Assembly: GCA_036378675.1 (NCBI GenBank)
Contig: DASUWA010000055.1
Coordinates: 1 to 64,000, forward strand
Source of the DNA: Acidimicrobiales bacterium
GTDB taxonomy: Bacteria > Actinomycetota > Acidimicrobiia > Acidimicrobiales > Palsa-688
DNA length: 64,000 bases
Direction: 5' to 3'
The notes beneath the pieces are model-generated. The model ran no database searches. It saw only the letters and a list, made by a program, of their open reading frames with translations, and was not told the origin of the DNA. The position numbers and the translations under genes were made by a program. This document shows positions 18,671-20,889 of the stretch, in pieces. Positions within the stretch are counted from its first letter, which is position 1; each line of letters opens with the position of its first letter.

Positions 18671-18910
18671 ATGAAACGATTCCGTCCGCTGCTCGCAACG
18701 CTCGTGCTGGCAGTCGGCGTGGCGTTCGCCGGATGCGGCAGCTCGGGTGCGACGAACACGCCTTCTGGTCCGACGACACCCAACGCCACGGTTTCGCCGG
18801 GGTCGACTCCTGGGTCGACCACGCCTTGCACCATTCCGCAGCACAACGGCGGGGACCACGACTCGGACAACAACGGTGGGCCGAGCGACGGCGATGGATG
18901 CGACACGTGA
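18671..18910 (+). CDS. small secreted lipoprotein of unknown function
   Basis: 79 residues. A positively charged start (MKRFR), hydrophobic core and lipobox AFAGC near residue 20 mark it as a lipoprotein anchored on the outer face of the membrane. The mature part is only Thr/Pro/Ser/Asn-rich linker with a DHDSDNNGGPSDGDGC tail carrying two cysteines and an Asp-rich, possibly metal-binding stretch. ATG preceded by AGGGAG. It overlaps the start of the next membrane-protein gene. Confidence 0.75.
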   Translation: MKRFRPLLATLVLAVGVAFAGCGSSGATNTPSGPTTPNATVSPGSTPGSTTPCTIPQHNGGDHDSDNNGGPSDGDGCDT

Positions 18911-19421
18911 CCAGACGTGTAGAACCGTGACTACCGGTGTCACTTTGAGAGGCAAGCACGACGCAGCCGGATTCGTGGGCCGACTCGTCGACGCCCTCCT
19001 CGGTCGAGGGTTTGGCGGGGCAACGCCCAAGTGGGTGAAGTGGCTCGGGACGGCCGCCGTCCTGTCCGGAGCTGCCTTGATCATCACCACAGCAGCCATA
19101 CATCTGCATCTTTGGCTGTCGGGCTACAGGCATGTTCACCGGCTCGGTCCGCTCTTCTTGGCCCAAGCCATCACCGGCTTCCTGCTCGGTCCGATCCTCG
19201 CCCTCGGCAGGCAAACGGCCCTAGTGGTCGTCGGCGCAGGTTTCATGGCGGCGAGCGCCGTCGGACTGCTGCTCAGCGCGACCGTCGGATTCGTGGGAAT
19301 CCACGACGGTCTGGATGTGCCGTGGGCGACGCCGTCGCTCTCCGTCGAGCTCGCCGGATTCTTGTTGCTGTCGGCTTCCAGCGCGATCGCGCTGGTCCCG
19401 ACCCTGCGGAGCGCTGACTGA
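18894..19421 (+). CDS. four-helix membrane protein of unknown function
   Basis: About 175 residues with four hydrophobic segments after a polar start (AAVLSGAALIITTAAIHLHL, LGPLFLAQAITGFLLGPILA, TALVVVGAGFMAASAVGLLL and SVELAGFLLLSASSAIALV). An LHLWLSGYRHVHRLGPLF motif in the first loop is His-rich. No family recognised. Start uncertain: ATG 18894 (overlapping the lipoprotein end) or GTG 18927. Longer upstream readings are shadows of the lipoprotein gene. It is followed with overlap by another lipoprotein gene, so three envelope proteins form one unit. Confidence 0.65.
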   Translation: MDATRDQTCRTVTTGVTLRGKHDAAGFVGRLVDALLGRGFGGATPKWVKWLGTAAVLSGAALIITTAAIHLHLWLSGYRHVHRLGPLFLAQAITGFLLGPILALGRQTALVVVGAGFMAASAVGLLLSATVGFVGIHDGLDVPWATPSLSVELAGFLLLSASSAIALVPTLRSAD

Positions 19422-19978
19422 CGTCGCTCCGGCTCGCAGCGACGATTTGTTCGGTTGCAATTTCATCTGCTGCTGCTTCATCTGCTGCTGCCGGGTGCGG
19501 AGGCAGAATCGGCGGAGCCGGGCGGTCGGCAGGGGTCACCGATGTATCAGGCCTTCCGGTCGACCGTCCCGTGACCCGTTCGGAGCTCATGCGCCTGCCG
19601 GAGGCTGCGCTTCGATTTCCACATTCGAAGCTAGAGAAGATCGTAGGCATGGACCAGAGTCCGACCCACCCCGGTGAGGAGCCCAATCCGGCCTTCACCG
19701 GGGCGATCCTGACCGCATCGACCACGCCGGCAGCGCTTTACAGCTGGTACGAATCGGCTCTCGACCGACTCGGTTTCGCTCCCACCCTGGATTTTCGGCC
19801 GGGTGATCAAACATCGGGTCACGCGTGGCAACTGCACCACCGCTTACAGGTTCAGGTCGGGGTGTTCGACCCCAAGCTTCTTCGCGATGATGCTCGCATC
19901 AGCATCACGCTTCCCCCCGGGCAGCTTGCGTACGAAGCCGTCGTGGTCGGCTACCCACCAGGATTACCCAGGTACTGA
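19418..19978 (+). CDS. lipoprotein of unknown function, apparently with a CTG start
   Basis: With ordinary start codons only residues from GTG 19571 are read. The frame is open for 51 more codons, to a CTG at 19418 that overlaps the previous gene's TGA as CTGA. Those codons encode an ideal lipoprotein signal: TSLRLAATICSVAIS, Ala/Ser core, lipobox AAAGC, then a Gly-rich linker. A TGA lies directly before the CTG, so no other start can include the signal peptide. The mature part (LPEAALRFPHSKL, STTPAALYSWYESALDRLGF) resembles small actinobacterial proteins with a surface-exposed alpha/beta module. Function unknown. GCGGAG precedes the CTG. Confidence 0.7.
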   Translation: MTSLRLAATICSVAISSAAASSAAAGCGGRIGGAGRSAGVTDVSGLPVDRPVTRSELMRLPEAALRFPHSKLEKIVGMDQSPTHPGEEPNPAFTGAILTASTTPAALYSWYESALDRLGFAPTLDFRPGDQTSGHAWQLHHRLQVQVGVFDPKLLRDDARISITLPPGQLAYEAVVVGYPPGLPRY

Positions 19979-20049: not shown

Positions 20050-20394
20050 ATGGGTAAGCGCGATGCCTCGGCGATGCGAGAAGTGGCGGCCTCCGCCGAC
20101 GCCACCGCACGGGAGCAGCGGAGAGTCGCGTCTCTTGCCCGCCGGATAGCCGACCAGCGCGAACGCGACGTTCCGTGGGCGACGATCACCGAAAGGGGAA
20201 CCGTGAGTTCGGTGATCGAGTTGCTCGGGCGGGGCGCCCAACGCCTCCGGTCCGGGTCGTCGAAGACACGCCGCTTGGCCGCGCGAGGGCTCTTGAACGA
20301 GGGGCTTACCACTCGGCAGGTCGGCCGCCGCTTTGGAGTAAGCCACCAGCGGATCTCGGCCCTCGTGTCAACAGATCGTGGGGACGACCGCTAA
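20050..20394 (+). CDS. small helix-turn-helix protein
   Basis: 114 residues, strongly basic. The N-terminal half is a long Ala/Arg helix (SADATAREQRRVASLARRIADQRERD). The C-terminal half has a helix-turn-helix of sigma region 4 or Hin type: LNEGLTTRQVGRRFGVSHQRISALV. ATG at 20050 with GGGAG ahead. It lies 12 bases before the RsbW-like gene, so they are probably co-expressed. It could be a DNA-binding partner of a stress-response switch (inference). Confidence 0.65.
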   Translation: MGKRDASAMREVAASADATAREQRRVASLARRIADQRERDVPWATITERGTVSSVIELLGRGAQRLRSGSSKTRRLAARGLLNEGLTTRQVGRRFGVSHQRISALVSTDRGDDR

Positions 20395-20406: not shown

Positions 20407-20889
20407 TTGGGCCGGACGCTTCGCACCAACAGTGACCCCAAGTGGGTAGGGGCAAACCGGACGGGTCTAAAGATGTCGCTGTCGCTCGAGCTTCCTCGCG
20501 AGCGCGAGAGTGTCCCGCTGGCGCGGCACCTCGCATCTCGATCGCTTTTGGAGTTGGGCGTGTTGGACGAAATCGTCGACGACATGGAGATCGCCCTGTC
20601 GGAAGTCTGCACGAACGTGATCGATCACGCCGAGGTGGGGGACTCGTACGACGTCGAGATATTCGTCAAGGGTCACGATTGCGAGATTCGGGTGGTCGAC
20701 AGCGGGTTAGGGTTCGACGCCATCGCGCTCGCGGACAGCGGTCCCGAGACCGACTTCGAACGCGGGCGTGGTCTGGCGATCGTGCGCGCGGTTATGGATC
20801 ACGTTGACCTGCAATCACACACCGACCGCGGCACGCTTGTCACCCTCGAAAAGCACCTAGAGTTCAAGTTCGAAATCAGCGCCTGGTAG
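20407..20889 (+). CDS. anti-sigma factor kinase-like ATPase (RsbW family)
   Basis: GHKL-fold protein of the RsbW/SpoIIAB type, which phosphorylates anti-anti-sigma proteins or sequesters a sigma factor. N box: MEIALSEVCTNVIDHA with the catalytic Glu and Asn. G1 box: IRVVDSGLGFD. G2 box: ERGRGLAIVRAVMDHV. C-terminal GTLVTLEK. TTG at 20407 has a strong AAGGGGG 9 bases ahead; ATG at 20473 (MSLSLELPRERES) is the start suggested by domain boundaries. No anti-anti-sigma partner is adjacent. Confidence 0.82.
   Translation: MGRTLRTNSDPKWVGANRTGLKMSLSLELPRERESVPLARHLASRSLLELGVLDEIVDDMEIALSEVCTNVIDHAEVGDSYDVEIFVKGHDCEIRVVDSGLGFDAIALADSGPETDFERGRGLAIVRAVMDHVDLQSHTDRGTLVTLEKHLEFKFEISAW

Follow-up and report, generated by a model that had tools for sequence, protein, structure and literature searches.

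Does a lipoprotein gene of this organism begin at a CTG codon that overlaps the stop codon of its upstream neighbour? The question is raised by a frame in the window, that is, the whole stretch of 64,000 nucleotides analysed here (G000:C55:1-64000), taken from a 4.14-Mb draft assembly in 75 contigs. An earlier note on this DNA had claimed that the signal peptide of the encoded protein can only be translated from CTG. The features that define the problem are these:

19418-19978, plus strand: whole lipoprotein gene, 186 codons plus stop, with a conserved domain at about residues 56-177
19418-19420, plus strand: proposed CTG start, directly preceded by TGA 19415-19417; with the upstream stop it forms CTGA
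19571-19573, plus strand: GTG, the first canonical start, where a caller limited to ATG, GTG and TTG would start the gene
18930-19421, plus strand: membrane-protein gene with a proposed GTG start, whose stop TGA 19419-19421 overlaps the CTG

A frame that opens at a stop-start overlap

In the window sequence, the CTG at 19418-19420 opens a frame that runs to TGA 19976-19978. It is directly preceded by an in-frame TGA, and the first ATG, GTG or TTG in the frame, GTG 19571, comes 51 codons (153 nt) past the CTG, leaving no canonical start able to include the conserved N-terminus. The upstream frame shares its TG with the CTG to form a CTGA junction, which places the proposed start within a few nucleotides of the upstream stop, as in translationally coupled gene pairs. 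Two near-cognate ATT codons also lie in frame upstream of the lipobox, at 19445 (codon 10) and 19460 (codon 15).

On these points the earlier note was accurate: its positions for the CTG, the preceding TGA and the GTG 51 codons on are all correct, the CTGA overlap with the preceding stop exists, and no ATG, GTG or TTG can include the signal. Its expectation that gene finding restricted to canonical starts would lose the signal peptide was likewise supported, with an open reading frame list of this kind beginning the gene at 19571. The wording "can only be translated from CTG" is slightly too strong, because a substitution at 19418 remains a rival and the two ATT codons are present. On the sequence, we judge it probable, with a good measure of doubt, that CTG 19418 is actually used as the start.

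The extension as a probable lipoprotein signal peptide

The 51-codon extension lost by a canonical-start model contains two features:

19418-19498, plus strand: lipoprotein signal peptide LTSLRLAATICSVAISSAAASSAAAG with lipid-acceptor Cys27 and lipobox A-A-G-C, recognised by pattern match and homologues
19462-19491, plus strand: perfect 15-bp tandem duplication, TTCATCTGCTGCTGC twice, in the hydrophobic core, adding five residues in frame (string search)

The lipobox AAAGC claimed earlier was found at residues 23-27, and the PROSITE lipoprotein pattern PS51257 matches at C27. Given a CTG start, Arg5 supplies a positive charge within the first seven residues; Cys27 falls within the range 15-35, the core is without charge, and the first six residues of the pattern include no D, E, R or K. 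We take the form of the rule applied here to be that of PROSITE. By this rule the protein resembles other bacterial lipoproteins in its n-region Arg, uncharged core, A-A-G-C and Cys at 27, and differs from the usual ones in that it would need a non-canonical start to carry its signal. The 15-bp duplication is built of codons with low GC3, looks recent and may vary between strains.

Curated domain models recognised no family for the lipoprotein in Pfam or NCBIfam, and a single-sequence structure prediction (mean pLDDT 35.7) was left out of fold searches. Searched with the window sequence alone, 397 genomes of the order gave one clear relative (G063, E 1.7e-6), the only one taken from 16 non-self genomes. 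Run against 298 genomes, a two-row profile then recovered two further relatives (3e-19 and 4e-18) as well as a paralogue (1e-7). A genome of the same family carries two paralogues on one 5-kb contig (L079 and L081, G007:C116), with another lipoprotein-like frame nearby. The first of these copies was added to the profile after inspection by eye of a weak match (E 0.044), and was then recovered by profiles from which it had been excluded (E 9.4e-7 and 8.2e-8, Z 4000), which supports it. Eight relatives were kept, the weakest being G037, which two profiles score at E 0.025 and 4.9e-5. The family is patchy: by profile at E 0.01, it matches 3 of the 32 genomes of the taxonomic family, own included, and the third of these (G005) is weak, at E 0.009.

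Several other matches were rejected. Those in G247, G041, G219 and G182 were attributed to chance: the frames that were read, in three of these genomes, resemble ribosomal protein S11, and G219 was dropped along with them. Matches in G257 and G137:C155, which belong to the same 16 genomes as G063, looked unrelated where read, as did weak matches in G019 and G020, from the same set as the retained G007.

Five of the eight relatives fit the lipobox pattern with a Cys at 15-35 (G007a, G112, G063b, G069, G037), and three of these five (G007a, G063b, G069) also pass a stricter rule that requires a K or R among residues 1-7. G007b has LLTAAAC with its Cys at 36, one place beyond the limit of the pattern, and the N-terminal membrane segment of G137 contains no Cys. 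The remaining relative, on G063:C108 (L011 1331-1923), is frame-broken, its domain and a membrane segment lying in different frames; either the gene is broken or the assembly is wrong here. When four relatives were made into a profile that excluded both the window protein and the G007 copies, it aligned to residues 8-157 of the window protein (E 1.1e-6, Z 4000). The alignment starts at residue 8 and therefore spans the signal peptide. Homologous positions are also kept in the window protein.

The earlier note had named orthologues lacking a signal peptide as a result that would count against it; the relatives carry N-terminal signals. Because they do, the lipoprotein signal peptide seen in the extension is very probably genuine, and export appears to be a habit of the family. 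The same note had suggested a comparison of orthologous start codons: the proposed starts of all seven relatives with an intact frame are ATG or GTG, and CTG was found in none examined, which counts against a CTG start.

Codon usage and chance rates in the same genome

The codon usage of the extension is neutral and counts against the CTG-start reading. Its codon score is -5.2, with three of the five other frames scoring higher, and its GC3 is 0.53; over their first 51 codons, seven canonical-start signal candidates in the genome sample described below had GC3 of 0.67-0.86 and scores from -7.9 to +6.5. The domain region scores 12.9 and is the sole positive among its six frames.

Chance was gauged in a sample of 353,017 bases from this genome that includes the window, over open frames at least 100 codons long. 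Of 318 coding frames, a single one, the gene at 19418 itself, has a lipoprotein signal that can be reached from no start but CTG and that ends before the first canonical start; of 1444 other open frames, none has one. A chance origin of this signal is unlikely. The overlap taken alone is unremarkable and proves nothing. Among 184 neighbouring gene pairs in the sample there are 60 frame-compatible -4 overlaps, whose NTGA codons include 14 GTG, 13 ATG, 9 TTG and 14 CTG. In 13 of the 14 CTG overlaps an ATG, GTG or TTG lies at most 12 nt downstream or somewhere upstream in frame; the exception is 19418.

A proposed model of coupled initiation

Two features bear on how ribosomes might start at the CTG:

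19408-19411, plus strand: Shine-Dalgarno-like GGAG, with a 6-nt spacer to the CTG
19408-19430, plus strand: possible 6-bp hairpin GGAGCG...CGCTCC, which would mask the GGAG and hold the CTG in its loop

The GGAG is mild evidence, because the enrichment of Shine-Dalgarno-like motifs at the first canonical starts of this genome is only twofold: 77 of 321 genes have such a tetramer before that start, compared with 12.06% of 20,000 positions chosen at random. In the hairpin, GGAGCG at 19408-19413 would pair with CGCTCC at 19425-19430. A 6-nt pairing partner is present for 15 of 1801 GGAG sites in the sample, a count made only after the hairpin had been seen, and the fold of the whole region was not better than that of shuffles (z -0.74).

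The CTGA overlap, with GGAG six bases upstream, appears to suit coupled initiation. Ribosomes ending at TGA 19419-19421 would open local structure, allowing a 30S subunit to settle on the GGAG with CTG 19418 in its P site. The CTG would then be read as fMet, with initiation here coupled to the end of translation of the membrane-protein gene. The hairpin, if real, would hide the GGAG until the upstream ribosome passes. Sec would export the resulting chain of about 186 residues, Cys27 would receive the lipid, and signal peptidase II would make the cut. With a CTG start and coupling, output would stay low and open to discrimination by IF3. What can be read off the DNA and its translations is the frame, its stop codons, the overlap, the GGAG, the lipobox and the N-terminal signals of homologues; from them we infer CTG initiation, coupling, lipidation and low output. 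As a whole, the reading of an exported lipoprotein translated from CTG 19418 in coupling with termination upstream is somewhat better than an even prospect. A bolder version is tentative and rather doubtful: the CTG may be deliberate, with the hairpin hiding the GGAG so that lipoprotein would come only from ribosomes ending the upstream gene and output would be set by IF3, and CTGA may be an overlooked weak form of ATGA and GTGA in high-GC bacteria.

Alternative readings

The first alternative is that the true start at 19418 is ATG, GTG or TTG, and that the C is a consensus error or a minority strain variant of the draft assembly. One base decides here between an ordinary and an extraordinary start, because any base before this TGA gives NTG. 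The ATG and GTG starts of all seven intact relatives favour a base error, as do the frequency of NTGA overlaps in the sample, where the other CTG cases have another start, and the draft state of a genome in 75 contigs. However, there is no direct sign of error at 19418, and consensus substitution errors are rare per base. A search for a second sequence of the species found no relative or exact match in the genome contigs or viral contigs searched. The reported scarcity of rare starts in Listeria, under 0.3% (PMC13068326), again speaks for an ordinary start. Overall we regard a miscalled or variant base as unlikely, although it has to be weighed seriously.

It is improbable that the gene is decaying, having lost its start codon and with expression absent or weak. 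The patchy family, matching so few of its family's genomes, and the frame-broken relative would be consistent with decay, but the 186-codon frame is fully open, the codon usage of the domain is coding-like and homologous positions are retained.

Slightly less credible again is a start at some other near-cognate codon, for example ATT 19445 or ATT 19460. ATT is a strong leadered start in Mycobacterium smegmatis according to PMC4633059, and both codons are in frame and upstream of the lipobox. Neither is preceded by a GGAG-like site, however, and starting at either would cost the n-region its single positive charge and put the Cys at 18 or 13.

A cytoplasmic protein from GTG 19571 or ATG 19589, with the extension untranslated, would agree with the canonical-only list and the neutral codon usage of the extension, but it is most improbable, since relatives carry N-terminal signals, a profile to which the window protein did not contribute aligns with it from residue 8 on, no Shine-Dalgarno sequence precedes GTG 19571 and the spacer before ATG 19589 is just 3 nt (by eye).

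Two further ideas were discarded by eye. For rescue by an indel, start-like codons were listed in three frames over 19330-19470, and no ATG, GTG or TTG in the other two gives a short charged n-region. For ribosomal frameshifting from the upstream gene, no slippery run was seen at the junction.

Candidate non-canonical starts in this genome, and reports from elsewhere

Translation from CTG 19418 would probably not be the sole irregular start in this genome. The infC frame (G000:C6, L082, minus strand), identified as the IF3 gene by Pfam IF3_C (E 3.7e-34), has no ATG, GTG or TTG before its N-terminal stretch, which we take to be conserved, and its likely start is ATA, nine nucleotides after AAGGAG. 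Non-canonical initiation therefore seems to occur in the organism, with infC as a local precedent.

In the M. smegmatis survey, CTG accounts for 0.03% of selected leadered starts and is not enriched, whereas ATT is (PMC4633059). By analogy this counts against the CTG reading, with CTG apparently a poor starter in mycobacteria. The survey concerns the start-codon rules of a high-GC organism, as here, and discusses RTGA coupling. Structures with a tRNA variant are reported to show weak pairing of CUG with fMet-tRNA at the first base in vitro (PMC11497404). The Listeria figure refers to core-genome open reading frames with rare or flexible starts (PMC13068326), and the discussion of the same paper cites a systematic study in which CTG functions at a reduced rate in E. 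coli.

The closest parallels are infC, which starts at ATT in E. coli and ATC in Streptomyces, and Streptomyces sigR, which starts at GTC; IF3 is reported to hold these starts down, infC being the classic example (PMC5472188). As in infC and sigR, the present gene of a high-GC bacterium apparently starts outside ATG, GTG and TTG, would be missed by start-site prediction, and is a candidate for IF3 repression and low output. It differs in having a CTG, in encoding a lipoprotein, in a start that overlaps the upstream stop, and in being known from sequence alone. The junction also has the -4 nt geometry of termination-reinitiation coupling, with TG shared with TGA; here C replaces the A or G of the overlap that PMC10666635 names ATGA or GTGA, and "ctg" is absent from the main text of that paper. 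A search of the open literature found nothing joining lipoprotein, signal peptide and "CTG start codon", which is no proof of absence from print.

The gene at 19418 is a good candidate member of a rare but known class, and the claim is a modest one. If CTG works at a stop-start overlap, gene finders limited to ATG, GTG and TTG would assign such proteins to the wrong compartment; in this case a surface lipoprotein would pass for a cytoplasmic protein. With a signal peptide common to the relatives, localisation of the protein would report directly on use of the CTG. A countable question follows, namely what share of CTGA overlaps in high-GC genomes are real starts; the 353-kb sample gives one candidate among 14.

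Neighbouring genes

The upstream membrane-protein gene belongs to a family with a common HLHLW..GYR...GPLFL motif, which matches 22 of 148 genomes of the order, own included, and has a second copy in this genome on C27. Its pairing with the lipoprotein is not conserved in nine loci of its relatives; after two of these nine membrane-protein genes (L031, L032) there are lipoprotein-like frames, but of different types. One more small gene lies upstream:

18672-18908, plus strand: small lipoprotein gene with an ATG start (MKRFRPLLATLVLAVGVAFAGC)

Downstream, a small helix-turn-helix-like gene (20050-20394) precedes an RsbW-like HATPase_c_2 gene at 20407-20889 (Pfam E 1.9e-21), which has a TTG start in the open reading frame list.
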